From: Pseudomonadales bacterium | GTDB lineage: Bacteria > Pseudomonadota > Gammaproteobacteria > Pseudomonadales > JAHRWD01 | Reading direction: 5' to 3' | Assembly (NCBI GenBank): GCA_016763075.1 | Contig: JAESUM010000050.1 | Location: 1-64,000 of the forward strand | DNA: 64,000 bases | The notes under the pieces: model-generated | The model's input: only the letters and a program-made list of their open reading frames with translations | Database searches by the model: none | What the model was told of the DNA's origin: nothing | Made by a program: the position numbers and the translations under genes | Shown: one piece after another, positions 35,356-53,902 of the stretch | Layout: each line of letters begins with the position of its first letter | Numbering within the stretch: the first letter of the stretch is position 1

Positions 35356-37638
35356 ATGAACGCAAGACTAGCCAATTGGTTGATAGACAAACGTTGGAGT
35401 TTAGCGTGGCTGTCCTGTGCGCTGTTAATGGTGTTGGCAGTGGGCTGCAAGCACCTTTATTTTGAGTCGAGTTACCGGATTTTCTTTAATCAAGACGACC
35501 GGTTTTTGCTGGCCTTTGATCAAATAGAAGACACTTATAGCCGAGAAGACAACCTGATTTTTGTGTTGGAGCCTGAGAACAAACAGGTATTTTCGCGCCA
35601 AACACTGGCCCTGGTGTTAGCACTCACCGAAAGAAGTTGGATGCTACCGTATTCGCATCGCGTCGATTCCATCACCAATTACCAGCATACAGCGGTAGAG
35701 GGCGACGAGCTTTTTGTTAGCGATTTGATCGAAGAGCTTCACGTGCTTTCTGACCAGCAGCTTCAGCAGCGCAAACAAATTGTGCTAAATGAGCCAGAAG
35801 TTCTGCATAAACTGATCTCCGCCAAAGCCGATGTTACCGCAGTGTACCTGCAGCTGCAGTTTCCAGACAACGGGGGCGCCAATGAAAAAGAAGTACAACA
35901 AATAGTAGCTGCCAGCCGTGTGTTAATAGACGAACTAACGGCGCAGCATCCAGGTTCAAAAATACACCTGACCGGCAACAGCGTGATCACCAATGCCTTT
36001 CAAGAGTCGGCCTTTTCGGATGGTCAAACACTAATACCACTGATGTTTGTAGTAGTAGCACTGTTAATGGCCTACCTTCTTGGCTCGGTTTACGCCGCGC
36101 TCATTTCAATGGTGATTGTGGGCTTTAGTGTATTGCTGGCAATGGGAGCCGGTGGCTGGTTGGGCTTTGCCATCAACCAAGTCAACGTATCCGCGCCGAC
36201 TATTATTCTTACCCTTGCGGTTTGCGATTGTGTACACCTGTTATCCACCTACTTACAACGTTTAGCAACCGGCGAAGAAAAGGCAAAAGCCATGCTCATA
36301 AGTCTTGAGCAAAATATGAAGCCTATTTTCATCACCAGCTTTACCACCGCTATTGGGTTTTTCAGCATCAACTTTAGTGATTCTCCACCACTGCGTGAGT
36401 TGGGTACATTGGTAGGGGTAGGGGTGATTGCTGCGTGGTTTTTCACCATGACATTATTGCCAGCGCTAGCATTAAAGTGGGTCACCAAAGCGCAGCCACG
36501 GGTTTTAAAATCGCAAAAAATATCGGGCTGGGTGAGTAACCTTGTGTTAACCCACCCTAAAAAACTGTTTTGGAGTGCGCTACCTATTATTGCGTTGTTG
36601 ATTTCAGCCGTACCATTGAACGAGCTAAACGACGATACCATCGCTTATTTTGACAAAGGCGTACCAGTGCGAGATGCCACCGACTTCACTGAAAAGCACT
36701 TAACCGGTGTGCATTCCTTGGTATTCTCGCTCGAAAGCGGCCGCGAAAACGGCGTGAATCAGCCAGAATTTTTACGCAAAGTCGAAGCCTTTAGTCATTG
36801 GTTGCGGGCTCAGCCTCAGGTGGCCCATGTCGCAACCTACACCGATACGCTAAAACGCCTTAATCGTACGCTCAGTAATGGCGATGCTCAGCAGTACCGG
36901 CTGCCAGAAACCTCCGCACTGGCGTCGCAGTACCAGTTGCTTTACGAAATGTCGCTGCCCTATGGGCTAGACCTAAACAACCAAATTAGTTTTGATCGCT
37001 CAGCGCTGAAAATAAATATTTCTTTAAGGGGGTTAAAGTCCCAAGGAATGGTGGATTTCAGCCAAAAGGCTTCACACTGGCTAGAGCAAAACGCGCCGCA
37101 GCTTGCTACCACTGGTTCCAGTATTTCAATCATTTTTGCTCAACTGGGCCAAAACAACATTCGCAGCATGATCGAAGGCTCCATCATCAGCTTGGGGCTT
37201 ATTTCACTTTGCTTGATATTTGCCTTGGGCTCTCTTCGTTATGGCGTAATTGCCGTGATTCCCAATATAGCTCCAGCAGCCATCGCCTTTGGCGTGTGGG
37301 GTTTGCTCGTGCAAGAAATCAACATGGCCGCATCGGTTATATTTAGTGTGTCACTGGGTATCGTGGTAGATGACACCGTGCATTTTTTAGGTAAATATAT
37401 TCATGCGAGAAAAAATAAAAGCCTAAGCTCGCGGCAATCTATTGCTTATAGCTTTGAAACGGTTGGCAGCGCACTCATTACAACCTCCGTTGTGCTGTCA
37501 TTGGGGTTTTTTGTACTCGCTTTGTCCAGTTTTGCGATAAACTCCATCCTTGGCTTAATGGTAGGCATGACCATTATCATTGCGATACTGTTTGATTTTT
37601 TTATTCTCCCCGTGCTTCTTCTAGCAATCGACGACTAG
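35356..37638 (+). CDS. MMPL/RND-superfamily transporter
   Basis: 760 aa; two 6-TM repeats, APTIILTLAVCDCVHLLSTY, FSVSLGIVVDDTVHFLGKY. Confidence 0.85.
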   Translation: MNARLANWLIDKRWSLAWLSCALLMVLAVGCKHLYFESSYRIFFNQDDRFLLAFDQIEDTYSREDNLIFVLEPENKQVFSRQTLALVLALTERSWMLPYSHRVDSITNYQHTAVEGDELFVSDLIEELHVLSDQQLQQRKQIVLNEPEVLHKLISAKADVTAVYLQLQFPDNGGANEKEVQQIVAASRVLIDELTAQHPGSKIHLTGNSVITNAFQESAFSDGQTLIPLMFVVVALLMAYLLGSVYAALISMVIVGFSVLLAMGAGGWLGFAINQVNVSAPTIILTLAVCDCVHLLSTYLQRLATGEEKAKAMLISLEQNMKPIFITSFTTAIGFFSINFSDSPPLRELGTLVGVGVIAAWFFTMTLLPALALKWVTKAQPRVLKSQKISGWVSNLVLTHPKKLFWSALPIIALLISAVPLNELNDDTIAYFDKGVPVRDATDFTEKHLTGVHSLVFSLESGRENGVNQPEFLRKVEAFSHWLRAQPQVAHVATYTDTLKRLNRTLSNGDAQQYRLPETSALASQYQLLYEMSLPYGLDLNNQISFDRSALKINISLRGLKSQGMVDFSQKASHWLEQNAPQLATTGSSISIIFAQLGQNNIRSMIEGSIISLGLISLCLIFALGSLRYGVIAVIPNIAPAAIAFGVWGLLVQEINMAASVIFSVSLGIVVDDTVHFLGKYIHARKNKSLSSRQSIAYSFETVGSALITTSVVLSLGFFVLALSSFAINSILGLMVGMTIIIAILFDFFILPVLLLAIDD

Positions 37639-37709: not shown

Positions 37710-37774
37710 CTGCTCAAATGTTCAGGGTAGCGGCTACTTTGATACGCGATTGGTGGTAGATGATGGCTTATAAG

Positions 37775-37790
37775 TGGCTGGCCTTGTGCA
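37775..37790 (+). promoter_or_regulatory. Weak sigma-54-type -24/-12 candidate upstream of prsT
   Basis: TGGCTGGCCTTGTGCA; GG-N10-GC spacing correct, three mismatches to TGGCACGN4TTGCA. Confidence 0.35.
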
Positions 37791-37857
37791 CTGGCATGTT
37801 TACAAAATGTTTGTTTTAACTTTTATTCGAATTTTATTGATATTTTTTGGTGACATT

Positions 37858-40626
37858 ATGGTATTCAGGAAAAAAACCACAATTTGTTTAATGGCCCTAG
37901 CCATTGCGCTAGCAGGCTGTGCAGATAACTTAACTGCGCCGGAGCATATTGCGCGAGCCAAAGAATTCTCGCAAAGTAAAGAATATAAATCTGCAGAAAT
38001 CGAACTCAAAAATGCACTCAAGAAAGCGCCTAACTCCCCAGAGGCACGCTTTATGCTCGGGCAGCTATACGCAACCACAGGCAACGCCGCCGGTGCCGAA
38101 AAGGAATTAGAGAAAGCACTAGAGCTGGGCGTATCCAAACTGTCGATAATTACACCGTATGCCAAAGCACTGCTGGCACAACGAAAATACCGAGAGCTGC
38201 TCGATGAAGTGGTTGAATTTGACGCACTGTCTGATTCCGAACGCGAACAGCTACACGTATATAGAGGTGAGGCTCACCTTGAGACCGGTGAGCTGGACCA
38301 AGCTGCTAAAGAATACGACCTGGCGACGGCGATTGTTTCAGGGTCAGTCTTTGCTACGCTAGGTCATGTCAAAATTGCTGACCGACACAATGACAGCGAT
38401 AAAATTGAGGAGCTGTTAGCGGGTTTGATAATTAGTGCGCCGAATGAGCCTTTAGTGTGGCGTTTTCAAGGCGATCTTTTTGTCAAACAGCAAAAACAAA
38501 AGCTAGCGGTTGGTAGTTATTCGCGCGTGATAGAGCTAAACGAGACTGACTTTTACGCGTTGGCGAGAAGGGCTTTGTTGTATGTTGAGCTTAGCGAGCC
38601 ATTAAAGGGCGATGCTGATATTGAAAGTTTGCTTAAAAAAGCCCCAAAATATTATTTGTCGTACTTTGTTGCCGGCGTCAGCCAATACAACAAAAAAGAT
38701 TTCCCCGCGGCGCAGGTGGCGCTGCAAGAATCTCTTACGTTAAGTGATGGGTATGCCCCCACGTATTATTATTTGGGCTTAACGCAATTGAGGTTATCCG
38801 AGTTGAGTCAGGCTGCTCAGAATTTGGGTGTCTTTTTGAACAGGTCGCCTGGTTCAATTGCTGGTCATCAAGCATTAGCTACCACGCAGTTTCGTTTGGG
38901 CGAACTAAAACGGGCCAAAACGACGTTAGAGCCTGTGCTGCGTCATATGCCTGAGTCACCGTTTGCAAACCAACTGATGGCACGTATAGAAATTGGATTG
39001 GGTAATAGTTCAACCGGCTTGGAGTACTTGGAGCGTTTAGCGAAACTTGCACCGAACGAAATTATTGCCCATACCCGCCTTGGGCTTGCTCAGCTAATGG
39101 CAGGGCAAGGGGATCTTGCAATTGCGTCACTAGAAAAAGCCCTACTGATTAATCCAGAAGTCGAGCGTAGTCAAGAGCTCGTGGCCTTTTCATATATCCA
39201 TCAAAAACGCTATGAAGAAGCGTTAAAGATCGTTGAACATATTCGAAAGAAATACCCTGAAAAGCCTACAAGTTGGAACCTTGAAGGTGTTATGTATTGG
39301 GACCAACAACAGTTTTCTAAAGCGAGTTTATCGTTTCGTGCCGCTCTAGATAAACAACCAGGTATGCCCGGGCCTTCTTACTATTTGGCTCAGTTATTGC
39401 TGTTGGAAAATAAAAGAGCAGAGGCTAGTGAAGTTTATTATCAAGTTTTGAAGAAACACCCAGGCCACTATAAAACAGAGCTAAAACTTGCAGAGCTTGA
39501 AGCTGCTGAAGGTGACTTGGCTGGACTGGAGTCTCGATTAACTCCGTTAATAAATGCGCACCCTGAGCAATTAGAGCCACGGCTATTGTTGGCTGGGTAC
39601 TATTTGCGGTTTGAGAAAACCGCATTAGCGCTATCTCTGTTACGAAATGCAAACCCCGCAGCTCACGATAGTCCCGCATTACTGGCATTGCTGACTGAAG
39701 CTGAGTTGAGTAGTGGCCAAAGCGCCGCCGCACGCGAAACCGCGCAGAAGTTAATTTCGAAATCTCCTGAATCGCCATTTGCTCATTTTTTGTTAGCAAA
39801 AGTGTATCAAGCAAACCGAGATTTAAAGGAGTTTAAAGCGGCATTAAGCCGTACCTTGGCGTTAGACCCGAGCCATAAACTGGCTAACGTGGCGAGGGTT
39901 CGCTTACTGACATATGAAGGTGATCAAGAACCCGCGTTAGCGCAATTGACACAGCTACTGGAGCAATATCCCAAAGACCACGAGGTGCTTTCGCTTGCGG
40001 GTTGGCATGCGTTGAATAGTGGTGAAGCATCACAAGCTGAGGCTTATTACCGCCAGTCTTTGGATTTATACCCTTCTACCTCTACAGTGTTGGAGCTAGC
40101 TAAAACGCAACAAGCTCAGGGTAGTGTCGATAGAGGTTTAGCTACACTGGTTAAATGGAACGAAAAATACCCACAAGATGTGCTGGTACGTTATGGCCGC
40201 TCTGCCTTTCATCAAACATTAGATCAGTTAGATGGAGCCGTAGAGCAGCTAGAAATCATCCTGAAGCAAGAGCCGACATACCCTTATGCCCAAAATGATC
40301 TGGCCTGGTTGATACGTAATAAAGACCCAGAGCGGGCACTTGTGCTTATTACCAAGGCAGCAAAACAGCTTCCGGCAATGGCTAGCGTAATGAATACATA
40401 TGCGGTTGTGTTAGCGTCAAATGGTCAATTTGGTCAGGCACTTCGTATCGCTGAACAGCTGTTACAGCGGTACCCTCAGAATCTCAATTTTCGCTATTAC
40501 CATGCGTTGATACTGCACAAGAAAGGCAACGTTAAGCGCTCGAAGGAGCTGTTAGGGCAGTTGTTAACTGAAGGGCAGTCGTTTCGTGAAATGGCCAATG
40601 CAAATAAGTTGCTCAAAGCGATGTAG
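37858..40626 (+). CDS. prsT: PEP-CTERM system TPR-repeat lipoprotein PrsT
   Basis: Lipobox ALAGC; YKSAEIELKNALKKAPNSPEARFMLGQLYATTGNAAGAEKELEKALELGV is characteristic of PrsT (TIGR02917-like); next to exosortase locus. Confidence 0.9.
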   Translation: MVFRKKTTICLMALAIALAGCADNLTAPEHIARAKEFSQSKEYKSAEIELKNALKKAPNSPEARFMLGQLYATTGNAAGAEKELEKALELGVSKLSIITPYAKALLAQRKYRELLDEVVEFDALSDSEREQLHVYRGEAHLETGELDQAAKEYDLATAIVSGSVFATLGHVKIADRHNDSDKIEELLAGLIISAPNEPLVWRFQGDLFVKQQKQKLAVGSYSRVIELNETDFYALARRALLYVELSEPLKGDADIESLLKKAPKYYLSYFVAGVSQYNKKDFPAAQVALQESLTLSDGYAPTYYYLGLTQLRLSELSQAAQNLGVFLNRSPGSIAGHQALATTQFRLGELKRAKTTLEPVLRHMPESPFANQLMARIEIGLGNSSTGLEYLERLAKLAPNEIIAHTRLGLAQLMAGQGDLAIASLEKALLINPEVERSQELVAFSYIHQKRYEEALKIVEHIRKKYPEKPTSWNLEGVMYWDQQQFSKASLSFRAALDKQPGMPGPSYYLAQLLLLENKRAEASEVYYQVLKKHPGHYKTELKLAELEAAEGDLAGLESRLTPLINAHPEQLEPRLLLAGYYLRFEKTALALSLLRNANPAAHDSPALLALLTEAELSSGQSAAARETAQKLISKSPESPFAHFLLAKVYQANRDLKEFKAALSRTLALDPSHKLANVARVRLLTYEGDQEPALAQLTQLLEQYPKDHEVLSLAGWHALNSGEASQAEAYYRQSLDLYPSTSTVLELAKTQQAQGSVDRGLATLVKWNEKYPQDVLVRYGRSAFHQTLDQLDGAVEQLEIILKQEPTYPYAQNDLAWLIRNKDPERALVLITKAAKQLPAMASVMNTYAVVLASNGQFGQALRIAEQLLQRYPQNLNFRYYHALILHKKGNVKRSKELLGQLLTEGQSFREMANANKLLKAM

Positions 40627-40721: not shown

Positions 40722-40738
40722 TTGGCACAATGTTTGCT
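40722..40738 (+). promoter_or_regulatory. Sigma-54 (RpoN) -24/-12 promoter of the PEP-CTERM gene
   Basis: TTGGCACAATGTTTGCT: TGGCAC-N5-TTGC with correct GG/GC spacing, ~47 nt upstream of ATG. Confidence 0.8.
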
Positions 40739-40784
40739 TTGTTTCTGGTGAGTATCAATTAATTATCCACGAGGTGGTTTGGAA

Positions 40785-41699
40785 ATGAAAAATTATAAAA
40801 GCAGTGTAGCGATAGTAGCTCTTAGTAGCTTTGCGCTACTGGGTGCAAATGCAGCACAAGCAGATGTCCTTGCAACATCTGTATTAAAACTCGATAACCT
40901 TACATTTTATAAGAGCGGAACTACGGATGTAATCACGGCAACTGATTTCACAGCTCTTTTTTACACAAGTTCTGCAGATGTAAATGCTAGTTTAAATGGC
41001 ACTTTGGTTGGTTCTGATGACGATACCGCTAGTGCAGCGGCTATTGATCTTGCTCCAGCATGTGTAGGTGATTGCCCAGCTATTACGGATAATGCGTTCC
41101 CAATAATTACTAGTACTGGCGGCGCTCCAAGCGCACATTTTGCCGCGTCTGATCAATATCAAGCCGGTTCACCGATTGCCGGCCTTGGCGTTTTTCTGGG
41201 TGCTAACATCCAGTCTGCTGCATATGTTTCTCTTCTTGGTGAATCATCAGGTACAAGTGGCGCGAACAACGAACTAGGTAGTGATTTCATATTTTCTGGA
41301 TACAGCGGTGGTATTGCAGCAGCATTTGATTTAACAGCCTATGTTGAGGCATTTGCGACAGCTGATTCAATTTTCCCTTCAAAAGCAGCGGCTTCGTTCT
41401 CTATCGTATTTACGATTACTGATGCTAATCAAACTGAGCTTTTCAAATACGAATTTGCTGAAACTCGCTCTAATACCTCACCGCTTAGCTATGGCGATGC
41501 AAAAGTATTTGCAACACCTGGTTCTATTGCTCTAGGTTTTGACACAGGCGATATTTTTGACGCAGGCGAAATTTATACATTGAGTGCTCGTACCACTGTG
41601 AATGCTGATGCGACTATGGTTCCAGAACCAGGCATGATTGCACTTTTGGGTGCTGGACTGCTAGGTCTTGGTTTTTCAAGAAAGCGTCGTGACGCTTAA
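40785..41699 (+). CDS. PEP-CTERM sorting-domain protein (exosortase substrate)
   Basis: Signal peptide SSVAIVALSSFALLGANAAQA; C-terminus VPEPGMIALLGAGLLGLGFSRKRRDA (PEP motif, TM, basic tail). Confidence 0.95.
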   Translation: MKNYKSSVAIVALSSFALLGANAAQADVLATSVLKLDNLTFYKSGTTDVITATDFTALFYTSSADVNASLNGTLVGSDDDTASAAAIDLAPACVGDCPAITDNAFPIITSTGGAPSAHFAASDQYQAGSPIAGLGVFLGANIQSAAYVSLLGESSGTSGANNELGSDFIFSGYSGGIAAAFDLTAYVEAFATADSIFPSKAAASFSIVFTITDANQTELFKYEFAETRSNTSPLSYGDAKVFATPGSIALGFDTGDIFDAGEIYTLSARTTVNADATMVPEPGMIALLGAGLLGLGFSRKRRDA

Positions 41700-41713
41700 T
41701 TGAAATAACCTCT

Positions 41714-41738
41714 GTTAACCCTGATAGTTGGGGTTAAC
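41714..41738 (+). terminator. First of two hairpins downstream of the PEP-CTERM gene
   Basis: GTTAACCC-tgatagttg-GGGTTAAC. Confidence 0.45.
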
Positions 41739-41756
41739 TAGAAGTAAAGATTGAAG

Positions 41757-41790
41757 AAAAAAAGGGGAGCCGATTTGGCTCTCCTTTTTT
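41757..41790. terminator. Rho-independent terminator after the PEP-CTERM gene
   Basis: AAAAAAAGGGGAGCC-GATTT-GGCTCTCCTTTTTT. Confidence 0.85.
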
Positions 41791-42801
41791 GTGCCTGCGA
41801 ATAACACATTTGGCTTGGTGGAAACGTACGTGGAACAAGGTATTCATCGGAATAATGTTCAGGTCAAATATGTACTAAACTTAGCGTCATATTTAAAAAA
41901 ACGATGGCTAAAAAAGGAGATTGCGGTGCCAAGTGTCGCGATGCTAAAAATACTACTGTTTGAGCTGCTAGGGGCGAAAGCAAAACCACGAAAACCAGAA
42001 CCCGATCTGGTGATGGATGACCCAGAAAAGGTAGCGGCCTACACCAAAGCAGGCAGAGTGGACGGAGTAATGGCGCCGGTATATTTGCACCACTGCGCGC
42101 AAATAAGTGAAGTGATTCGCCCTGGCGACAAAGTGCTCGATTTAGCCTGTGGCCCTGCAACTCAATTGGCCATGGTGGCTCAGCTTCACCCCAACTGCCA
42201 ATTTACCGGTGTCGATTTATCCGAACCCATGCTTGGTAGGGCAGAGGCGCACATTGCAGATTTGGGCTTGAGTAATGTCGGTTTTGTGCGCTCAGATATT
42301 TCTAAATTAGAATCGTTCGAAGACAACAGTGTTGATGCAGTGTTTTCTACCGTTGCGCTTCATCACCTGCCCGATGTAGCTACTCTCAAGCGAACATTTG
42401 AAGAAATTGCACGGGTATTAAAACCCGGTGGCGGCGTGTATTTGGTTGATTTTGGTAGGCTTAAATCACAACGTACGATCGAATATTTTGCATACCAATA
42501 TGCAGATAAACAAGCCGAGCTGTTTACACTGGATTACCTGTATTCGTTAGAAGCCGCTTTTAACAAAAGTGATTTTGAAAGCGCTGTATCGGGTAATCTT
42601 TCTACTTACGCAACGCTATATTCTAGCTTTTTGGTACCCTACAACGTTGCGATAAAAAGCCCGAGACGAGCAGAGTTTGATGCAGAGCTAAAGCTCAAGT
42701 TGAAAGCACTTCGTTCTGCGCTTCCGGCTTATCACAAGCGTGATATTAACGATCTTATTTTTTCATTTAAGATGTCGGGTATGACAAGCCGGCTGCTATA
42801 A
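41791..42801 (+). CDS. Class I SAM-dependent methyltransferase (start uncertain)
   Basis: VLDLACGPATQLAMVAQLHPNCQFTGVDLSEPML (motif I/II), VFSTVALHHLPD; the GTG at 41791 abuts the terminator so a downstream start is likely. Confidence 0.85.
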   Translation: MPANNTFGLVETYVEQGIHRNNVQVKYVLNLASYLKKRWLKKEIAVPSVAMLKILLFELLGAKAKPRKPEPDLVMDDPEKVAAYTKAGRVDGVMAPVYLHHCAQISEVIRPGDKVLDLACGPATQLAMVAQLHPNCQFTGVDLSEPMLGRAEAHIADLGLSNVGFVRSDISKLESFEDNSVDAVFSTVALHHLPDVATLKRTFEEIARVLKPGGGVYLVDFGRLKSQRTIEYFAYQYADKQAELFTLDYLYSLEAAFNKSDFESAVSGNLSTYATLYSSFLVPYNVAIKSPRRAEFDAELKLKLKALRSALPAYHKRDINDLIFSFKMSGMTSRLL

Positions 42802-42814
42802 ATCCTTCCATTGG

Positions 42815-44797
42815 CTATTGCGAATGATGGGTTAAATCTGACAGTGGTTTTCGGGTAGAGCGAGAGGTGGCAATACTGGCCCGGCCAATGCGCCCGGCAA
42901 ATACCAAATTTTGCGGTGTTTCGGGCGCAACTAACCTTGCAAGCTGGTCGCGCAGTTTTTCAGCGGTACGGATGTATTTTTTTGAGGTAGAGAACGTAAC
43001 ACCGTCGTTAATATATTCCGAGAAAATCAACGGTGTCATTTCCGGTTGTAATTGTAGCCCAAGCTGAGTGGCAGTAAGCCAAAACCGCTGAGTCGCTATA
43101 CCTGCGTTTATAAAGTCTTGCGGTGTTTGTGGTGGTTGATCTGCAGCTATAAAAAAATGCGCGCCGCTCATTAAGCTTGGGATGATATCCATTTCTAACC
43201 GCGCTGCGTAGCTGCCACCCAAATAATTATTGAGCAGTTTTACTCGGCTGAAGCTGTGCAGGCTCCATTGCATCAATTTTCTAGTAATAGGGTTTACGCC
43301 CAAGGCTTGGTCGGGGATTTTATCTTCGCTGAACTGGGCATTCCATTCTATGTTTTGGCTATGTGTAGCGTAAGCTTCCGGCAGTTTTAAGCGCAATCCG
43401 GCGTTCTTATACAGCAGTTTTGTGATGGCTCTTTTGGCTGAACCGCCTTCAATCCAGATAAGATGGTAACCCTCCGGAATAGCTTCACTGAGTGCGCTTT
43501 TTTGGCGAGTATTTAGTGGGGCTGCCGAGTATGGCTTACGGTTGACGGAGCGGGTTTTGATGTGCGAGTGCAGTGGGTCAGCGGTGATGGCAGCATCAGC
43601 AATAAACTGAATATTGATGGAAGGAGATTGCCCGGTTGCTGAGTTAATGATGCTCCAAGAAGTTGCTAGCCCAAAGTGTGTGGCTGCAATGCGGATGTTT
43701 TCTAGCATGGTGCCGGTAGACAGCTGGCTTGCATGACCTTGTAGGTCGTATACGCAATGGTCGCGAGTGTCTTGTGTGTGTAAGTTTAGTTGGTGTTCGT
43801 TGATGATTTCAAACCGGCATACTTGGCTGTTGTCACCACTTGGCGCCCAGCGCGCAATATCTAATATTTGGTCGATTGGGCGGGTGTATTGCGTTGCTGC
43901 AGGTTGTTCAACCGCTGGCTCATCATGGATGATTTTTTTTGCTAGAACAATAACCGCGCGCTGTAACGGGTTACGGTTGCCAAAGGGCCGCCAGGTCTTT
44001 TTCAGTTTGTTGAGATAAGCATCGTAGTGGAGGCCGTGTGGCGCTGCGGGTACTCTACCGCGGTTTAGCAGAAGTTTTAGCGACATAGATGCAGCAAACC
44101 CGGCACACAGCTCGCACCCAATAGGGGTTGATGATGCCTTGCGCTGGTTGAAATTGACCGCTGAAGGTTCGATGAGGTATTTGCGCTGAATGGCCGAAGG
44201 GGTTAGTCCAACCAAGAATCGAATGAGTTGTTCTTGCTCATCTTTACCTTCGAGCTGGAAATATTCCTCGAAGGTCATTTTGCCCGGTAAAAATGCCAGT
44301 AAACCAGCACCCATGCCAATTGGGGCTGCGGTAATAGCCGGAATTCCCAGTTCTTCGCAGCGTGCAAATACCTTGCGGCGGATATCGAGGGCGAAAAAAT
44401 CTAAAGCATCGACGTAAATATCGACGCCATCCAGGAAATCATTGAGGTTTTCATCGGTCAGGCCCTGCTCAAATATCCGAATATCCAATTCAGGGTTGAT
44501 CTGTTTAGCCATTTTTTCCATAACGGCTGTTTTGGGTTCGCCAATTGACTCCATATTGGCGCCGGACTGACGGTTAAAATTGTGCAGGTCAAAGTGATCG
44601 AAATCAGCAATGTTGAAGTTGGATATCCCAAGCCTGGTGTGGGTTAGCAGGTGAATCCCGCCGACACCGCCCATCCCGGCAATGGCGACTCGTTTAGTGC
44701 GAATGAGCTGTAATTCAGCAGCGGTAAGCCAGCCAACGGTGCGGCTAAAGGCGGTGTTGAAATCGAACGTGGGATTATTGCTCATCGAATTTTTCAC
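42815..44797 (-). CDS. ThiF/HesA-type E1-like adenylyltransferase fused to a nitroreductase-like domain
   Basis: 660 aa; N-half GMGGVGGIHLLTHTRLGISNFNIADFDHFDLHNFNRQ (E1 ATP-binding) and GCELCAG; C-half ARWAPSGDNSQVCRFEI (nitroreductase FMN motif). Confidence 0.85.
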   Translation of the reverse strand: MKNSMSNNPTFDFNTAFSRTVGWLTAAELQLIRTKRVAIAGMGGVGGIHLLTHTRLGISNFNIADFDHFDLHNFNRQSGANMESIGEPKTAVMEKMAKQINPELDIRIFEQGLTDENLNDFLDGVDIYVDALDFFALDIRRKVFARCEELGIPAITAAPIGMGAGLLAFLPGKMTFEEYFQLEGKDEQEQLIRFLVGLTPSAIQRKYLIEPSAVNFNQRKASSTPIGCELCAGFAASMSLKLLLNRGRVPAAPHGLHYDAYLNKLKKTWRPFGNRNPLQRAVIVLAKKIIHDEPAVEQPAATQYTRPIDQILDIARWAPSGDNSQVCRFEIINEHQLNLHTQDTRDHCVYDLQGHASQLSTGTMLENIRIAATHFGLATSWSIINSATGQSPSINIQFIADAAITADPLHSHIKTRSVNRKPYSAAPLNTRQKSALSEAIPEGYHLIWIEGGSAKRAITKLLYKNAGLRLKLPEAYATHSQNIEWNAQFSEDKIPDQALGVNPITRKLMQWSLHSFSRVKLLNNYLGGSYAARLEMDIIPSLMSGAHFFIAADQPPQTPQDFINAGIATQRFWLTATQLGLQLQPEMTPLIFSEYINDGVTFSTSKKYIRTAEKLRDQLARLVAPETPQNLVFAGRIGRASIATSRSTRKPLSDLTHHSQ

Positions 44798-44821
44798 TAC
44801 GTTACTTAGGGTTTGTTTGTA

Positions 44822-45571
44822 CTACCCTAATTGTGGTCGAAATTGGTCAATAAGCACATTATTGATGCCTTCCAATAAGTTTTGTGTGTCTTCGGATATG
44901 TTGCGTTCGTTGCTGGTTTTGAATACGTATGGTGCTCGGGAGCCATGGTATTCAACAAGTGGCCCAGCTTGTTCAAACGATAGACCAAAGCGTTTGATGT
45001 TTCGAGCAAGGCGCGGTTCAGTCACCATGAAAATGGTATCTAGCTCGTAATAGGTGTGGCAATAAAGCGCGAGAGAAAAAGCCGATAGATAAAGCCCAAC
45101 GTTGATAAGCGGGAATGCGCGTTTTAAGTGTTCTTGTTCTTCTGCGTTATCGGTTAATCCGACCGGGCTGTTGCGGTCGTTGGCGCGTTTACGAAAATCA
45201 CGGTGAACGGCAAGTCTGGATAATTCGGCATATCTGCCGTGAGTAAGCGTGCTGGGGTCTAGTATGTTTTTGTCGAGTATATCGAAGAAGTGCTCTTCGA
45301 TTGGAAGAGGGGTGTTGGGCTGCCCGGGGGTGGGTAGGATGAGCCGTATGCAGCCAGCATATTTCCCCGTGCTGTTGTGCTGTATTAGGAAATGGTGGGA
45401 GTATTCGTCGTATTCATCTATTTCGATATGGTCTATATTTTCGGCCTCAAACCCAAATTCGTCGCAATATACTTCATGCCGTATGCTGTACACCTCAGCT
45501 TTTAGCGCTTCGGTGTTGGCATAAACCGGTGTGAAGTACAGAAAGAATTGATCTCTAAGAGATGGACGCAT
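44822..45571 (-). CDS. PEP-CTERM/exosortase system-associated acyltransferase (FeeM/LuxI-like fold)
   Basis: 249 aa; AEVYSIRHEVYCDEFGFE, HHFLIQHNSTGKYAGCIRLILP, YAELSRLAVHRDFRKR; resembles TIGR03694 family. Confidence 0.85.
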   Translation of the reverse strand: MRPSLRDQFFLYFTPVYANTEALKAEVYSIRHEVYCDEFGFEAENIDHIEIDEYDEYSHHFLIQHNSTGKYAGCIRLILPTPGQPNTPLPIEEHFFDILDKNILDPSTLTHGRYAELSRLAVHRDFRKRANDRNSPVGLTDNAEEQEHLKRAFPLINVGLYLSAFSLALYCHTYYELDTIFMVTEPRLARNIKRFGLSFEQAGPLVEYHGSRAPYVFKTSNERNISEDTQNLLEGINNVLIDQFRPQLG

Positions 45572-45852
45572 TAATTTATTTCGAATGGATCAGGTGAGAG
45601 TATAGCGATAGCAAGAGGCTCGAACCTTGTTGGTTTCTTTGAGTAGCAGCTGGATCCAACAGTAACATATCTTAAATTAAAGCTCTAACAGCGAGACGTT
45701 TCAATGTTGTGACTCAATAGATGTATGCGATATGGGCTGTAGAGTATACATTCTGTGTGATATGCATCCATTGTCATCTAAAAGTGTGACGCGTGGTATT
45801 TATGCTAAAATTACCTGTTAGATTTGTTCCGAATTGGAGAAATGTGGAATTC

Positions 45853-46500
45853 ATGAATAATAAAAAACTGTTTGGCCAGCTGTCGCGGAAAATGATGCTT
45901 ACGTTGTCTGCACTTACTTTGGTGGGTTGCGCTTCTGATAAGCCAATGTTGCCTGCAGCGCAGATGTTTGCGCCTTCAACGACTGAGTCATCTAACTACC
46001 ACTATTTGGTAGGCCCTGGGGATTCCCTGAGTATCTTTGTTTGGAATAACCCGGAGGTTTCCACTACGGTGACCGTTCGTCCTGATGGGATGATCAGCAC
46101 CAACTTGGTTGAAGATTTAAAGGTAACGGGGCAAACGCCAACTCAAGCTGCGCGTCAAATTGAGCAAGTCCTGAGTAAGTACATTAAAGAGCCGATCGTT
46201 ACCGTGATTGTGGGTGGTTTTATTGGGCCTTATTCTGAGCAGGTAAGAATATTAGGCGAAGCGACATCCCCGCAAACATTAGCGTATCGGCAAAACATGA
46301 CGGTGCTAGATGTCATGATACAAGTTGGCGGCATTACTGATTTTGCCGACGGAAACAAAGCTTCTATCGTTCGAGTTGTAGGCGGTTCTCAGAAGGAATA
46401 TCGCGTCCGATTAGATGATCTAGTACGAGATGGTGACATCAGCGCAAATGTTGAAATTCTTCCAGGTGATATTTTGATCATTCCTGAAGCGTGGTTCTAG
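45853..46500 (+). CDS. XrtA-associated polysaccharide export lipoprotein (Wza-like)
   Basis: Lipobox TLVGC; YLVGPGDSLSIFVWNNPEVSTTVTVRPDGMISTNLVEDL. Confidence 0.92.
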   Translation: MNNKKLFGQLSRKMMLTLSALTLVGCASDKPMLPAAQMFAPSTTESSNYHYLVGPGDSLSIFVWNNPEVSTTVTVRPDGMISTNLVEDLKVTGQTPTQAARQIEQVLSKYIKEPIVTVIVGGFIGPYSEQVRILGEATSPQTLAYRQNMTVLDVMIQVGGITDFADGNKASIVRVVGGSQKEYRVRLDDLVRDGDISANVEILPGDILIIPEAWF

Positions 46501-46552
46501 TTTTTACACTGATGATTACCTTAGCCAGTTCAAAGATCTTTAACCTTTTTGG

Positions 46553-48097
46553 GTGGAATACAGTTTGTTGCAAGAGCAAATAGAATTAGTACTGTCGTAC
46601 GCGCACAACCTCTGGAATAAACGCTGGTGGATGGCAGGCATTACGTGGCTGGTGTGCTCCGTAGGTTGGATTTCTGTATACAACCTGCCTGACGAGTATG
46701 ACGTAAGTGCGCGTGTGTATGTTGACACCCGGAACTTGTTGAAGCCGTTATTAAGAGGCTTAACCATTCAAGGTAACAGCGAGCAACAAATTAGATTAAT
46801 GGAGCGAACGCTCTTCAGTCGCCCGAATTTAGAAAAAATTGTCCGGATGGCGGATTTAGACCTTACCGTCAGTGACGATGCCGGTTTTGATCAACTGATT
46901 ACTGAGGTCAAAAAATCGATCTCAATGAGAAAAGACAGTAAAGATAATCTTTACACCATTCATTATTCTGACCCTGACCCAGAAAAAGCAAAAAGATTGG
47001 TTCAAGCGGTATTAACGACATTCGTCGAAAATACAATCGGCGAGGCTAGGGGTGATACCGCAGCAGCGCAGCGATTTATTGATAAGCAAATTGGCGAATA
47101 CGAGCGGCGTTTACAGGTATCTGAAAACGAATTAAAGCTATTTAAGCAAAAAAATGTTGCTTATTTGTCTGAGTCGGGGAGTTTTTACTCGCGACTAAAA
47201 GGTGAAAAGGGACGACTCGAATCGTCAAAACTTGAGCTTGCTGAAGCAGAGCAAAAAAGAGTGACTATTTATAACGAGGTCGAAGGCGAAGAACCGGTCT
47301 TTATCCCCGAATTGGCTGAGGTTGACGAGCCCACAACGAAGTTTGATGCAAGGATACAAAACCTCACATCCCAATTAGATAGTTTGTTGTTGAAATATAC
47401 CGAGCAGCATCCCAATATTATTTCTATTAAACGGACACTCGCAGACCTTGAGTCAAAGAAAGAACTAGAGCTAGCTGAAATGGATTCTGGTGTAGGTATG
47501 TCGGCAGCAGCCTACAGCGGTAGTAACTATTACCAGCAATTAAAATTGACCCTATCACAATTGGATGCATCGATAGCGTCGCTAAAAGTTCGAGTTAAAA
47601 GCTATCAGGAACGAGTAGATAAACTCAGTGGCCAAGTAAATACAGTTCCCGAAGTAGAAGCGCAGCTTAAGTCATTAAATCGTGACTACGGCATTGTTAA
47701 GAAAAAACACGATGAATTGTTAGTGCGCAGAGAGCAAGCCATACTTTCTCAGCAGGCGGATCAAAGTTCTTCAGAGATTAAATTTCGGGTAATTGATCCA
47801 CCGCGTGTGCCGTTAGAGCCAACAGGGCCAAACCGAGCGATCTTTGCCAGCATTGTATTGGTCGTTGGCTTTATCGCGGGCACGGGGTTCGCGTTTGTAA
47901 TGGGGTTGGTGACACCTACTTTTAATAGTGCATTCCTATTGACACAAGCCACTGGATTACAGCTATTAGGTACGGTTTCGTTAAGCCCTAATGAAGAGCG
48001 AACTAAAGAGCGGAAAAAGCAATTAATCTATTTTGTAGCGCTGATATCAGCGCTACTTGGCGTTTATGGGGTTCAAATGAGCCTATTGCTAAGATGA
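46553..48097 (+). CDS. XrtA system polysaccharide chain-length determinant (Wzz-like)
   Basis: 514 aa; two TMs flanking a coiled coil; VYVDTRNLLKPLLRGLTIQ, VIDPPRVPLEPTGPNRAIF; GTG start. Confidence 0.9.
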   Translation: MEYSLLQEQIELVLSYAHNLWNKRWWMAGITWLVCSVGWISVYNLPDEYDVSARVYVDTRNLLKPLLRGLTIQGNSEQQIRLMERTLFSRPNLEKIVRMADLDLTVSDDAGFDQLITEVKKSISMRKDSKDNLYTIHYSDPDPEKAKRLVQAVLTTFVENTIGEARGDTAAAQRFIDKQIGEYERRLQVSENELKLFKQKNVAYLSESGSFYSRLKGEKGRLESSKLELAEAEQKRVTIYNEVEGEEPVFIPELAEVDEPTTKFDARIQNLTSQLDSLLLKYTEQHPNIISIKRTLADLESKKELELAEMDSGVGMSAAAYSGSNYYQQLKLTLSQLDASIASLKVRVKSYQERVDKLSGQVNTVPEVEAQLKSLNRDYGIVKKKHDELLVRREQAILSQQADQSSSEIKFRVIDPPRVPLEPTGPNRAIFASIVLVVGFIAGTGFAFVMGLVTPTFNSAFLLTQATGLQLLGTVSLSPNEERTKERKKQLIYFVALISALLGVYGVQMSLLLR

Positions 48098-48172
48098 GTT
48101 TTTTAATTGACACGCCAATGTTATTTCCTAAATATGCTGTTGTTAAGCAGGGTTTTCTGCGGGGCGAACGCG

Positions 48173-49090
48173 ATGAGTAGTATTGAAAAAGCGCTGAAAA
48201 AAAGTAAATCTGAATCAGCTGGTGCGAAGAAATTACCAGCGAATGTTGTGTCTGACAGTAGTAAACCTGAAAGCGCCGTATCATCGACCCTGGAAAATGC
48301 TGCAGCTGCTGCAAACGCAAAGCCAACAAAAAACCGACAGCAAGCTCGGTCGGTTCGGTTCTGCGATATTGATCTAGAAGGTTTGGAACAAAAAGGCATT
48401 ATCACTCCCGGTTCAGTACGTTCACGCTTTAAAGAAGAGTACAGGCTTATAAAAAGGCCTTTGTTAGACCGTGTTTTTGGAGAAGGTAAAAGCCGCAGTG
48501 GTAAACCGAATAACGTAATTATGGTGACCAGTGCTACGCCAGGAGAGGGCAAAACGTTTAATGCAATTAGTTTAGCAATCAGTATCGCCGACGAGCAAAA
48601 CCGGCGGGTATTGCTTATTGATGCCGATGTCGTCAACCCCAGCGTAGCCAGAACTTTTGGGGTAGAAGAAAGCGATGGATTGGTGGACTATTTGTCCGGT
48701 GATTTCGGCGATATATCCGAATTGTTATGCCAAACAAACATAGAAGACCTGACGTTTTTACAGGCAGGTAAACGACATCACTTGACCACAGAGCTACTAG
48801 CTAGCAAACAGATGGCACAATTAGTTGATGAGCTGTCACGGCGTTATCCTGACCGAATAATAATACTGGACTCACCTCCCCTAATGCATACCTCTGAGGC
48901 CGGTGTTTTGGCCAGCTTGGCAGGCCAGGTCGTACTGGTTGTAGCTGAGAATGCAACGAAACAATCGGACGTTAAAAAAGCAATAGCACGGCTTGGTAAT
49001 CGGCGTGATATAGGTCTAATTCTTAATAAAAGCCGCACCACCAACAGCAAGTACGGTTACTACTACGGATACGGTGAAGACCGTGAATAG
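48173..49090 (+). CDS. XrtA-associated tyrosine autokinase (CpsD/BY-kinase)
   Basis: MSSIEKALKKSK; Walker A VTSATPGEGKTFNAISLA, RVLLIDADVVNPS, Tyr-rich C-terminus KYGYYYGYGEDRE. Confidence 0.92.
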   Translation: MSSIEKALKKSKSESAGAKKLPANVVSDSSKPESAVSSTLENAAAAANAKPTKNRQQARSVRFCDIDLEGLEQKGIITPGSVRSRFKEEYRLIKRPLLDRVFGEGKSRSGKPNNVIMVTSATPGEGKTFNAISLAISIADEQNRRVLLIDADVVNPSVARTFGVEESDGLVDYLSGDFGDISELLCQTNIEDLTFLQAGKRHHLTTELLASKQMAQLVDELSRRYPDRIIILDSPPLMHTSEAGVLASLAGQVVLVVAENATKQSDVKKAIARLGNRRDIGLILNKSRTTNSKYGYYYGYGEDRE

Positions 49091-49188
49091 TGTTGGAAAT
49101 GCTCACTAGCGATCCGCTAAAGCATTTTTTAAGGTGATCTATTTTCTCATTTCTTCGACATCAACGGTTAGGTTTTAAAGTTAAAAAA

Positions 49189-50838
49189 ATGCAAAAATTA
49201 ACCGTTGCTTCTGTGCGTCAAAAATCCATCCAGCCATTAAACAAGCTTTTGGTGTGCGTGTTTGCGCCCCTATTGCTGAGTATTTCTGGCTGGCTCAGCG
49301 CCGCACAATGGACTACTCAAGCAAGTGTTTCTGTATCGGAATTTTATACCGATAACGTACGCTTATCGCAAAATAGCGAGGCTGATGATTTTATTACTGA
49401 GTTAACGACAGCATTTTCAGTTAAAGCTGATGGTGCGCGAATAGATGTCGACTTCAATTACTCGGTTAGCTATTTCGATTATAAACAAGACGATAATCTC
49501 GATGACTTACGTCAGGCGATGAGGCTATCGAGTAGTTTTAATCTGATCCCCAACAATTTGGTGCTCGAGGTTGATAGCGCAATAACTCAACAGCTTATCT
49601 CATCACGCTTGCAGGGTTCAGGTTCTGTTGTTGGGTCTTCAAATGTGTTGGATACCTTTACCAGTAGCGCCGAAGCTTTATGGAATAGCAAACTTGGAAA
49701 CTTTGCGGTGTTATCAGCGTCCTTTGAGCTGAATCAAGTGGATTACATTGCAGGCTCCAATTCTGGTGGAACAAGCACGTTTCAATCGGACAGTATTGGG
49801 CAAAAAGGCCGCTTCGTACTGGCTAACGCCGATGAACTTAAACGCATATTTTGGTCGGCGAACTATTTAGATAGCCGAATAGATTATGAAACCCAAGAGC
49901 AAGCTGGTGAACAAAGCGGCTCAGTTACCATTGGCTACCGGTGGGATCACGTCAGGGTTAACGCCGATGCCGGGTGGTCGCGTTATCGGTACCTTGTGTC
50001 TTTTGGCGGTGCACAACCTGATAATGACTTTACTGTTTTAAAAGCCACGTGGACACCTTCTCGTAAAGTATCGGTTGGTTTGTTTCAAACGGTTAGAAAT
50101 TATAGCCAAGGTACACTGGCGGCAGATGCCAAGCGAAAATCAGTTGGCGGCGATATAACCTGGAACCCAAGCGTAAGAACCAGCTTGCAGGCTTCTACCA
50201 GTAATGCTTTTTATGGTGACTCCTACGGTTTTAGCTTTACCCACAGAACCAAAAAAAGTAATTGGTTTGCAAATTATTCAGAGTCGGTGACTGACTCACG
50301 GCGCTTAATAACCTCTACCGGCGATTTTATCTCGGTTTGCCCCATCGGATCGTTAACCCCATTTGACCCGGGTTGTACGCCCAAATTACCGAATACGAAT
50401 ATAACTGCTGCAGTTATTGAAATTCCATTCAGGCTGTCCTCTTCGGATATTAGTGGCGAAGAGTTTATAAGCAAAAATGCAGTGATCGGTTATAGCTACA
50501 GTGCCGCTCGTACTACTATTGGCTGGTCCTTATTTCAGACCGAAAGAATTTACCTGACTTCGGTCCGAGAAGAAAAAGACAAAGGTATCCGTATGAATGT
50601 GACGTGGAATGTAGGGCGTTTTTCTACAGTGACGCTCATAGCCAATCAAACCCAGCGTGTGTTCGGCGATGGCACCGATGGCGATTTTCTGTCTTCCGAT
50701 CTCGTGTTTAATCGAAAAATAGGCCGTAAAACAAGTGCGTCCATAGTGTTACATGTCGCTGAAAATGTAGATGTATCATCGAATAATAGCTACAGCGAAA
50801 ACCATATACGCTTGCAATTAACAACCTCATTGAATTAG
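49189..50838 (+). CDS. PEP-CTERM system-associated outer-membrane beta-barrel protein (TIGR03016-like)
   Basis: 549 aa; signal peptide, SVSEFYTDNVRLSQNSEADDFITEL; locus position. Confidence 0.8.
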   Translation: MQKLTVASVRQKSIQPLNKLLVCVFAPLLLSISGWLSAAQWTTQASVSVSEFYTDNVRLSQNSEADDFITELTTAFSVKADGARIDVDFNYSVSYFDYKQDDNLDDLRQAMRLSSSFNLIPNNLVLEVDSAITQQLISSRLQGSGSVVGSSNVLDTFTSSAEALWNSKLGNFAVLSASFELNQVDYIAGSNSGGTSTFQSDSIGQKGRFVLANADELKRIFWSANYLDSRIDYETQEQAGEQSGSVTIGYRWDHVRVNADAGWSRYRYLVSFGGAQPDNDFTVLKATWTPSRKVSVGLFQTVRNYSQGTLAADAKRKSVGGDITWNPSVRTSLQASTSNAFYGDSYGFSFTHRTKKSNWFANYSESVTDSRRLITSTGDFISVCPIGSLTPFDPGCTPKLPNTNITAAVIEIPFRLSSSDISGEEFISKNAVIGYSYSAARTTIGWSLFQTERIYLTSVREEKDKGIRMNVTWNVGRFSTVTLIANQTQRVFGDGTDGDFLSSDLVFNRKIGRKTSASIVLHVAENVDVSSNNSYSENHIRLQLTTSLN

Positions 50839-50847
50839 AGCAGGGTT

Positions 50848-51906
50848 ATGTACGAAGAATTTTACGACCTTACCGCACAACCATTTCAGCTAAGCCCTGA
50901 CCCGCGTTTCTTTTTTGGAAGCAGAAGCCATAATCGAGCAATGTCGTATTTGAAGTATGGGCTTAATCAAGGTGAAGGTTTTGTAGTCATTACCGGCGGG
51001 GTTGGTACCGGTAAAACCACATTAATGAAAAATTTATTCGATGAGCTTGGCCGCGACGAATACATAGCCGCACAATTAGTCACCACTAATTTACAAGATA
51101 ATGACCTGCTTTGTGTTATTTCGATGGCGTTTGGGTTGTCAACTGAGAGCCTAACTAAAGCTGAAGTGCTGACGCAGTTTGAAACCTTTCTTCGCCATGC
51201 TGACCGCGAAGGAAAACGGGTTTTGTTGGTAGTGGATGAGGCGCAAAATTTACCGATGACCAGCGTTGAAGAAATACGCATGCTGTCTAATTTTCAAGTT
51301 GAAAACCGGCCATTGTTGCAAACATTTTTGCTGGGGCAAGAGGAGTTTAGGCCCGTTATTCAAGCTCCTCAAATGGAGCAATTGCGCCAGCGAATTATCG
51401 CATCGTGCCATTTGACCCCGCTAGATGAGCTGGAAACCAGAGCGTATATCGAACATAGGCTTAAGCTTGTGAGCTGGGAGCAAGACCCGGATATCACCGA
51501 CAGTGCTTTCCAGCACATATATAAGTTTACTGACGGTATTCCGCGCCGGATAAATGTATTTTGCGATCGCTTATTCTTGTATGGCTACCTTGAAGAACTA
51601 CATTGCTTCGATGCCACCGTCATAGAAGCTGTCGTGGCAGAGCTCAGAGAAGAAACCGCGCACCAAAAAATTGATGTGAATGCTCAAAGTTCGGTGTTTC
51701 ACGACCCGAACTTGCAACCTCATCGCGCACCTATTAGAGAAGTGTCTGGTAGTCAGACAACTGCTACCAACCGGAATTTGAATTTGACCGAACTACAGAA
51801 ACGAATTGTTGATGTTGAATACGTAATAGAAGAGCTAGAAGATACCTTTAACCGCAAAGTTGGTCTGCTTAAAGCCGTTGTAAATACATTGAAAAATAGC
51901 ACTTAA
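50848..51906 (+). CDS. XrtA-associated ExeA-like AAA ATPase
   Basis: 352 aa; MYEEFYDLTAQPFQLSPDPRFFFGSRSHNRAMSYLKYGLNQGEGFVVITGGVGTGKTTLM. Confidence 0.92.
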   Translation: MYEEFYDLTAQPFQLSPDPRFFFGSRSHNRAMSYLKYGLNQGEGFVVITGGVGTGKTTLMKNLFDELGRDEYIAAQLVTTNLQDNDLLCVISMAFGLSTESLTKAEVLTQFETFLRHADREGKRVLLVVDEAQNLPMTSVEEIRMLSNFQVENRPLLQTFLLGQEEFRPVIQAPQMEQLRQRIIASCHLTPLDELETRAYIEHRLKLVSWEQDPDITDSAFQHIYKFTDGIPRRINVFCDRLFLYGYLEELHCFDATVIEAVVAELREETAHQKIDVNAQSSVFHDPNLQPHRAPIREVSGSQTTATNRNLNLTELQKRIVDVEYVIEELEDTFNRKVGLLKAVVNTLKNST

Positions 51907-51984
51907 GCTGATGAATATCATAATATCTAGAATGGTTTTAGGCGCTATGCACCATGGTATATTTATTAGAACGGAGTGCATTAC

Positions 51985-52839
51985 ATGAATCAGCCTGGGC
52001 TTAACAGCGCTCCGAATAATGCAATGACGGTTGATGTCGAAGATTACTTTCAAGTATCTGCATTTGAAGACATTATTGCGCGGGATCAATGGGATGCTTT
52101 ACCGCTTAGAGTAGAAAATAATACTTACAGAATTCTCGAGTTATTTGAACAAAAGAAAATAAAGGCGACTTTTTTTACTTTGGGTTGGGTGGCAGAGCGG
52201 TGCCCCGGGTTGATTAAAGATATTGTCGCTCAGGGCCATGAGCTTGCAAATCATGGGTATTCCCATCAACGCGCAACCCAAATGAGCCAGAATGACTTTA
52301 GGGAAGATATTGCTAAAGCAAAAACCATTCTTGAAGACTTGTCCGGTGTACACATTAAGGGTTATCGCGCACCCAGTTATTCTATTGATAAAACAAACCC
52401 TTGGGCTCATGACGAAATACTCGAAACTGGGCACAGCTATAGTTCGAGTATTGTGCCAATCCATCATGATTTATACGGTATACCTGACGCGCCTCGGTTT
52501 ATGTATCGTTGCGAAAACGGATTGTTAGAAATTCCAATTACTACCGTGCGGGTATTCGATAAAAACTTGCCCTGCGGTGGCGGCGGGTATTTTAGGATGC
52601 TGCCTTATTGGGTTTTTCGTTGGGGCTTACGGCGCGTAAATAAGGTTGATCAGCAGTCCGCCATATTCTATTTCCACCCGTGGGAAATAGATCCCGATCA
52701 GCCGCGACAAACCAATATAGATATAAAAACACAAGTACGTCACTACCTTAATTTGGGAAAAAACCAGAGAAAAATCACAACGCTATTGGATGATTTTAAC
52801 TGGGATAGAGTCGATAGAGTGTTTCTCGACGCAGCCTAA
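51985..52839 (+). CDS. XrtA system polysaccharide deacetylase
   Basis: AMTVDVEDYFQVSAFED, FTLGWVAERCPGLIKDIVAQGHELANHGYSHQ, FYFHPWEIDPDQPR. Confidence 0.92.
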   Translation: MNQPGLNSAPNNAMTVDVEDYFQVSAFEDIIARDQWDALPLRVENNTYRILELFEQKKIKATFFTLGWVAERCPGLIKDIVAQGHELANHGYSHQRATQMSQNDFREDIAKAKTILEDLSGVHIKGYRAPSYSIDKTNPWAHDEILETGHSYSSSIVPIHHDLYGIPDAPRFMYRCENGLLEIPITTVRVFDKNLPCGGGGYFRMLPYWVFRWGLRRVNKVDQQSAIFYFHPWEIDPDQPRQTNIDIKTQVRHYLNLGKNQRKITTLLDDFNWDRVDRVFLDAA

Positions 52840-52865
52840 CTATTCAAATTGGAATACCTTTAAAC

Positions 52866-53900
52866 ATGTCTGAAGAATATACATTGGGGTACCTTGATGA
52901 ACGCTCCTGCGAGCGCTGGAATCGTTTTGTCGAAGGCTGTCCGAAAGCAACGTTCTTTCACCTTTCGCAATGGAAAGCGGTGATTGAGCAAGCATTTGGG
53001 CATAAAACATATTTTATGTTTGCTGAGCGCGCTGGCGAAATTCAAGCAGTATTACCGCTTGCGCAGGTAAAAAGTTTCCTATTCGGTAATGCCTTAACGT
53101 CCAGCCCATTTTGTGTTTATGGCGGTGTTGCAGCTAACGATGAGTCATCGCGCCGCTATTTAGAAGATCAAGCGTGTGAATTAGCCGATCGATTACAAGT
53201 TGATTACCTTGAAATGCGAAACTTAGAAAGATCTCGCGATGATTGGCCGTGTAAAGAACTGTACGTTACCTTTCGTAAAGAAATTTCTGAAGATGAAGAC
53301 GAGAATTTAAAGGCGATTCCACGTAAGCAACGTGCGGTGGTTAGAAAAGGAATAAAGGCTGAGCTACAGTCCGATATTGATCAAGATATTAACGATTTTT
53401 ACAGTGCGTATTCGACCAGCGTACGCAACTTGGGGACACCGGTATTTTCTAAAAAGTATTTTAGAGTATTGAAGGAAATATTTGGCGCAGACTGCGATAT
53501 TTTGACGATACGCAAAGATCAAAAATTGATTGCTAGCGTCATGAATTTCTATTTCCGAGATGAAGTTTTGCCCTACTATGGCGGTGGAACAGATGAAGCT
53601 CGGCAAGTAAAAGGCAACGATTTTATGTATTGGTCGTTGATGTGCCATGCAAGCAAGCGAGGCGTTAGAACCTTTGATTATGGCCGCAGCAAAATTGGGA
53701 CCGGACCATTTAGTTTTAAGAAAAATTGGGGGTTTGAACCTCAACCACTGTTCTACGAATACCATTTGGTGAAAGCGACAGAGATGCCCGATATCAATCC
53801 GATGAACCCCAAATATAACTTGATGGTAAATGCCTGGAAGAAACTACCCCTAGCGCTGAGCCAGTTTATCGGGCCGATGGTTTCAAAGTATTTGGGGTAG
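52866..53900 (+). CDS. FemAB-family XrtA/PEP-CTERM-associated protein
   Basis: 344 aa; FHLSQWKAVIEQAFGHKTYFMFAE, FDYGRSKIGTGPFSFKKNWGFEPQPLFYEYHL. Confidence 0.9.
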   Translation: MSEEYTLGYLDERSCERWNRFVEGCPKATFFHLSQWKAVIEQAFGHKTYFMFAERAGEIQAVLPLAQVKSFLFGNALTSSPFCVYGGVAANDESSRRYLEDQACELADRLQVDYLEMRNLERSRDDWPCKELYVTFRKEISEDEDENLKAIPRKQRAVVRKGIKAELQSDIDQDINDFYSAYSTSVRNLGTPVFSKKYFRVLKEIFGADCDILTIRKDQKLIASVMNFYFRDEVLPYYGGGTDEARQVKGNDFMYWSLMCHASKRGVRTFDYGRSKIGTGPFSFKKNWGFEPQPLFYEYHLVKATEMPDINPMNPKYNLMVNAWKKLPLALSQFIGPMVSKYLG

Positions 53901-53902
53901 TT

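Follow-up and report, generated by a model that had tools for sequence, protein, structure and literature searches.

A probable OxzAB-type oxazolone pathway within the XrtA/PEP-CTERM exopolysaccharide locus of a Pseudomonadales bacterium

Introduction

What does a small group of biosynthetic genes inside an exosortase locus produce, and does its product serve that locus? The question is raised by the first 64,000 nucleotides of contig JAESUM010000050.1 (assembly GCA_016763075.1) of a Pseudomonadales bacterium, a stretch referred to below as the window. Between a predicted exosortase substrate and the XrtA exopolysaccharide (EPS) cluster, it carries genes for an acyltransferase, a ThiF–nitroreductase fusion protein and an S-adenosylmethionine (SAM) methyltransferase. 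An earlier note on this DNA had read these genes as a module for N-acylation, adenylation and flavin redox chemistry, had proposed that its product might serve, or signal to, the sorting/EPS system, and had seen in it a candidate for an undescribed system. We compared the module with published pathways and followed its gene context across bacterial genomes.

The Module and Its Relation to Known Oxazolone Pathways

The first gene of the pair (44822..45571, minus strand) encodes a 249-aa OxzA-like N-acyl amino acid synthase (NAS), assigned by profile and predicted fold to the TIGR03694 family (exosort_acyl; 221 bits, cut-off 112), with Pfam matches to FeeM, Autoind_synth and Acetyltransf_5. Its AlphaFold model (predicted local distance difference test, pLDDT, 86) finds its best fold matches in LasI, TofI, BjaI and FeeM. 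On the same strand, after a gap of 24 bp, follows the gene of a putative OxzB-like oxazolone synthetase, a ThiF cyclase fused to a flavin oxidase (42815..44797; 660 aa as listed). Its ThiF/E1-type adenylating (cyclase) domain (43994..44725, minus strand; PF00899, 130 bits) has conserved D65, D67, R76, K89, D130 and D133, and the C-terminal Acg-type domain of the flavin mononucleotide (FMN) nitroreductase fold (42830..43876, minus strand; PF00881, 40 bits) carries a WAPSGDNxQ motif, R469 and Q584. The fusion reaches 406 bits on NF006077 (cut-off 266) and stays below the cut-off on NF011424 (380 bits), Rv1355c-family and Acg-family models. The SAM methyltransferase gene (41926..42801, plus strand) converges on the fusion gene, 13 bp separating the two. 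Coordinates and profiles thus agree with the arrangement described earlier, and the domain families and predicted folds bear out the three proposed activities.

The model of the fusion (pLDDT 83) matches Escherichia coli ThiF (1zfn; template modeling (TM) score 0.78 by target) and Mycobacterium smegmatis Acg (2ymv; TM 0.71), the two structures with which TrzS was compared in PMC12856293. The second-best fold match of the model is AclA of Tenacibaculum discolor (9egb), a free-standing protein of the ThiF type whose structure was determined together with its substrate.

ThiF–nitroreductase oxazolone synthetases with a partner acyltransferase have been published as OxzAB, TyzABC and TrzAS (PMC10404671, PMC12856293). 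We conclude that the module, set within an XrtA/PEP-CTERM EPS locus, is very probably a pathway to N-acyl oxazolones of the OxzAB type, an assignment made from sequence and predicted structure. Its predicted chemistry matches that of OxzA/OxzB (Pseudoalteromonas) and of TyzABC and TrzAS (mycobacteria), makers of N-acyl oxazolones; as chemistry, the system is therefore not an undescribed one. Over 658 aa, the window fusion shares 44% identity with that of Pseudoalteromonas luteoviolacea (locus L201), which serves as a congener stand-in for the characterized P. rubra OxzAB; the P. luteoviolacea NAS adjoins its fusion and scores 124.9 on TIGR03694 (cut-off 112).

As in P. rubra (PMC12856293, PMC10404671), a separate NAS stands beside a ThiF–nitroreductase fusion, both of the same families. 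The window pair differs in lying within an XrtA/PEP-CTERM EPS locus and in having a methyltransferase gene linked to it; around the P. luteoviolacea pair, a span of 10 kb contains no gene for XrtA, PrsT or a PEP-CTERM protein. TrzA/TrzS of mycobacteria and Rhodococcus (PMC12856293) likewise include a fusion of ThiF and a flavin oxidase (FDO), with the same fold matches and probable equivalents of D217, R540 and Q651; however, the window fusion is only about 25% identical to the Rhodococcus homologue, and TrzAS belong to another subcluster, without an exosortase. TyzA/TyzB/TyzC of M. tuberculosis (PMC10404671) comprise an NAS, a ThiF cyclase and an FDO with a flanking MmpL gene, but as three separate genes and without a PEP-CTERM system.

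The fusion likely retains counterparts of the residues tested in TrzS: D133, R469 and Q584 align with the inferred positions of TrzS D217, R540 and Q651, the TrzS numbering being mapped through the Rhodococcus homologue (D200, R530, position 641) and not through the TrzS sequence itself. This homologue has His in the Q651 column; its last two mapped positions are 111 apart, as they are in M. smegmatis TrzS.

By analogy with these families, the NAS would N-acylate an amino acid, probably aromatic, with a fatty acyl group taken from acyl-ACP (acyl carrier protein) or acyl-CoA (coenzyme A). The ThiF domain would then adenylate the carboxylate with ATP, and attack by the amide oxygen would close a five-membered oxazolone. 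Finally, the FMN domain would desaturate the alpha–beta bond with O2, giving a conjugated oxazolone whose ring could be reopened by water to an N-acyl dehydro-amino acid. The cyclization and desaturation steps have a precedent in TrzS, by which N-acyl tryptophan is cyclized with ATP and desaturated with O2 (PMC12856293). Modification of the product by a dedicated methyltransferase may follow, and a nearby transporter of the MMPL/RND (resistance-nodulation-division) type may export it. Nothing points to a cap attached to protein or polysaccharide, which the earlier note had also envisaged.

Linkage with the XrtA System Across Genomes

An even sample of the class comprised 274 genomes, of which 26 have OxzB by a score above the NF006077 cut-off, 50 have XrtA above its cut-off, and 24 have both. 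XrtA thus occurs in 24/26 OxzB genomes against 26/248 others (odds ratio about 100; Fisher p 1.7e-18); at the level of families, where sampling leaves some shared ancestry, the figures are 18/20 against 19/151 (p 2.7e-12). NAS over cut-off was found in 20/26 OxzB genomes (p 8e-17), and a NAS profile built for this analysis placed an NAS within 17.5 kb of OxzB in 21/26.

The co-occurrence is also one of position. Among 22 OxzB loci on contigs of at least 15 kb, EPS/XrtA, PrsT or PEP-CTERM genes lie no more than 17.5 kb away in 20; by type, PrsT is found at 17, PEP-CTERM genes, detected by a simple pattern, at 18, EPS/XrtA genes at 13 and NAS at 20. In a named GTDB set of 80 OxzB loci, some of them on short contigs, XrtA-system genes lie within 10 kb in 40 of the 47 loci having at least 20 kb, including those of Nitrosospira, Thiobacillus, Janthinobacterium, Massilia, Methyloversatilis, Alteromonas and Rheinheimera. 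For the combined set, XrtA-system genes are nearby in 82/94 assessable OxzB loci, and the arrangement recurs in about 20 taxonomic families with changing gene order, which is more than chance would give. The earlier note had named lack of co-occurrence in other XrtA genomes as a result that would speak against it; the two are instead found together, and the genome context supports its proposal of a product tied to the sorting/EPS system.

Two different NAS genes stand close together at several OxzB loci (L067 in genome G094, L062 in G242, L125 and L130), which suggests that they differ in acyl or amino acid specificity; a single NAS gene is present in the window.

In a wider phylum sample, OxzB was found in 5/160 genomes, two of them new; in one of these two, G285, its neighbors include PrsT and a PEP-CTERM gene. 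A Nitratidesulfovibrio vulgaris plasmid (NZ_CP116248.1, L205:5068-7992) encodes a 974-aa FeeM–ThiF–nitroreductase triple fusion (PRK14852; FeeM 150 bits) between a pair of PrsT and TIGR03013 glycosyltransferase genes and THxN PEP-CTERM genes. This separate fusion lineage, from another phylum, provides independent support of the Rosetta-stone kind.

A link between NAS and PEP-CTERM genes was published in 2011 (Craig 2011, as cited in PMC4897644 and PMC11072679). The window resembles those loci in its NAS linked to PEP-CTERM genes; as cited there, the link covers the NAS, to which the window adds an oxazolone synthetase. The XrtA linkage of a complete oxazolone synthetase appears to be unreported as far as the searchable literature shows, the partial open-access coverage making this weak evidence of novelty.

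Role of the Product and Alternative Explanations

We consider a functional link of the oxazolone pathway to the XrtA system reasonably probable. The OxzAB product, an N-acyl oxazolone or dehydro-amino acid, may act in, or signal for, EPS, biofilm or surface-protein function. More tentatively, we propose that N-acyl oxazolones, or their reopened and possibly methylated forms, could be a metabolite of the XrtA system itself: a secreted lipid controlling, anchoring or maturing exosortase-dependent exopolysaccharide and PEP-CTERM surface proteins. This would be the ancestral role, and the free-standing Pseudoalteromonas pathway would be derived from it.

Published observations bear on these proposals. 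In Methylomonas sp. LW13, disruption of a PEP-CTERM/exosortase NAS abolished a polysaccharide band, and complementation restored it (PMC11072679). In a tabulated EPS/biofilm cluster of Rubrivivax gelatinosus, two UBA/THIF-type genes come immediately ahead of the gene for polysaccharide export (PMC3684757); we regard these entries as candidate OxzB-type genes.

Several observations weigh against the reading as an XrtA-linked oxazolone pathway. The Methylomonas NAS disruption also lost growth in the gradient, along with the band (PMC11072679). The window fusion was compared with that of a congener and not with P. rubra OxzAB themselves, and the window NAS shares only 27% identity with its P. luteoviolacea counterpart, so that the amino acid and chain length are not readable from it. 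Oxazolone modules without XrtA occur in P. luteoviolacea, in mycobacteria and in genome G376 of the wider phylum sample, which has neither PrsT nor a PEP-CTERM gene beside OxzB. Several OxzB loci on long contigs likewise show no nearby XrtA gene, and the link to XrtA is therefore not obligatory.

The final product might be open-chain, namely a possibly methylated N-acyl dehydro-amino acid of the thalassotalic acid or stieleriacine type, with the oxazolone as an intermediate only. Producers of such compounds have NAS, ThiF and nitroreductase genes, as the window does, with a methyltransferase in some clusters; one Stieleria cluster includes a UbiE-like methyltransferase, and no oxazolone was seen there (PMC12479983). 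The window methyltransferase is also UbiE-like by its profile matches. However, the fused TrzS gave an oxazolone in vitro, and acid or alcohol work-up opens the ring (PMC12856293), so the open forms may be artefacts. In the stieleriacine and thalassotalic acid clusters, unlike in the window, ThiF and nitroreductase are separate genes, and PMC12479983 does not mention an exosortase. We regard an exclusively open-chain product as somewhat unlikely.

A free-standing secondary-metabolite cassette that shares a genomic island with the XrtA EPS locus, with no functional link, would account for the OxzB–NAS pairs of P. luteoviolacea and G376 and for the position of the window NAS and fusion genes on the strand opposite the EPS operon. 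It is nevertheless unlikely, given the co-occurrence in 24 of 26 genomes, the roughly 20 families with reshuffled gene order, and the Nitratidesulfovibrio lineage sitting among PrsT and PEP-CTERM genes. Loci that have an NAS and lack OxzB also argue against it, as only 1/10 of them showed an EPS cluster within the stretch retrieved. In addition, a tree of 110 ThiF domains, which lacks P. rubra, groups the P. luteoviolacea OxzB with Colwellia and Pseudocolwellia proteins (0.997 for this local clade), whose loci have PrsT and PEP-CTERM genes, and nests it among XrtA-linked OxzBs including that of the window. The Pseudoalteromonas lineage is therefore surrounded by XrtA-linked relatives, and at L201 the linkage has apparently been lost.

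It is highly improbable that the NAS is a LuxI-type acyl-homoserine lactone (AHL) synthase and the product of the module a classical quorum signal. The Autoind_synth match (PF00765, 47 bits) and the LasI and TofI folds fit such an enzyme, but the best curated family is TIGR03694, FeeM is matched as well, and the ThiF–oxidase partner has no known part in AHL synthesis. This identity was set aside with scores far under the cut-offs on TraI PRK13834 (35/292 bits) and NF052393 (26/250 bits). Equally hard to sustain is modification by the fusion of a protein or a ribosomal peptide (a TOMM, thiazole/oxazole-modified microcin, or microcin-like heterocycle) and not of a free N-acyl amino acid: peptide heterocycle pathways do use E1-like and flavin dehydrogenase domains, and the fold matches include MccB and PaaA, but the usual partner is an NAS, fused into the same protein in Nitratidesulfovibrio, and the reading was set aside with no YcaO among the assigned genes of 35356-58200, where short open reading frames (ORFs) were not searched for a precursor peptide.

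Methyltransferase and Transporter

The earlier note had counted the methyltransferase as part of the module; its convergence on the fusion gene holds at this locus, but across genomes it is an occasional partner. Close homologues (55–62% identity) were found in 3 other genomes of the 274, in all three near OxzB; the gene accompanies OxzB in 4/26 OxzB genomes. A 34% homologue in G091 lies at a locus with NAS, XrtA and EDSAP-1, and four further homologues, at loci that had been selected by OxzB (L155, L160, L188, L198), usually adjoin a PEP-CTERM gene. Judged by these relatives, the methyltransferase is a rare subfamily of OxzB/NAS loci and not a core component. It may act in the oxazolone pathway, an assignment we hold loosely; its substrate could be the pathway product or something tied to the PEP-CTERM protein.

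The candidate exporter is an HAE3/MMPL-type RND transporter identified by profile (35356..37638, plus strand), directly before the PrsT gene. Homologues of it below E 1e-90 occur in 97/274 genomes; the family is widespread, so that presence alone is uninformative and only a position near oxzB carries weight. An MMPL-type transporter lies within 17.5 kb of OxzB in 12/26 genomes, and in G242 and at L168 its gene overlaps oxzB by 4 bp. The tyz cluster of M. tuberculosis is flanked by mmpL9 (PMC10404671).

Surrounding Genes and Gene Starts

The placement of the module between a PEP-CTERM substrate and the XrtA EPS cluster, as noted earlier, was confirmed. To its left lie genes for the tetratricopeptide repeat protein PrsT of the XrtA system (37774..40626, plus strand; TIGR02917, 591 bits) and for an EDSAP-1 family PEP-CTERM protein, the predicted exosortase substrate (40779..41699, plus strand; NF041538, 206 bits; C-terminal VPEPGMIALLGAGLLGLGFSRKRRDA). 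To its right, the complete XrtA EPS cluster (45793..56688, plus strand) encodes an export protein, a chain-length determinant, a tyrosine kinase, an outer membrane protein, an ATPase, a deacetylase, a FemAB protein, a glycosyltransferase and, at its end, exosortase A, with matches to TIGR03027, TIGR03007, TIGR03018, TIGR03016, TIGR03015, TIGR03006, TIGR03019, TIGR03087 and, for XrtA, TIGR03109.

Two gene starts were revised from the sequence. For the fusion, ATG 44785 (656 aa) is more likely than the listed start because homologues begin there. For the methyltransferase, whose ORF was first listed from GTG 41791, the more likely start is GTG 41926 behind AAAAAAGGAG, giving 291 aa, the length of the homologues in G169 and G061; the former start is disfavored because 41791 marks the end of a terminator-like hairpin with a T tract (41764..41790, plus strand), read from the sequence in the interval between the EDSAP-1 and methyltransferase genes. 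No Rfam RNA family was found in 37600-46600, and promoter and terminator scans gave matches no better than those in shuffled sequence.

Conclusions

What oxazolones do physiologically is described in PMC12856293 as a major unresolved question, and since 2011 it has been an open question why NAS genes accompany exosortases. The class-wide linkage of complete oxazolone synthetases with XrtA joins these two questions and offers the two orphan systems a shared role that can be tested. It would also provide a specific reading for the generic ThiF and hypothetical annotations found in many EPS clusters.

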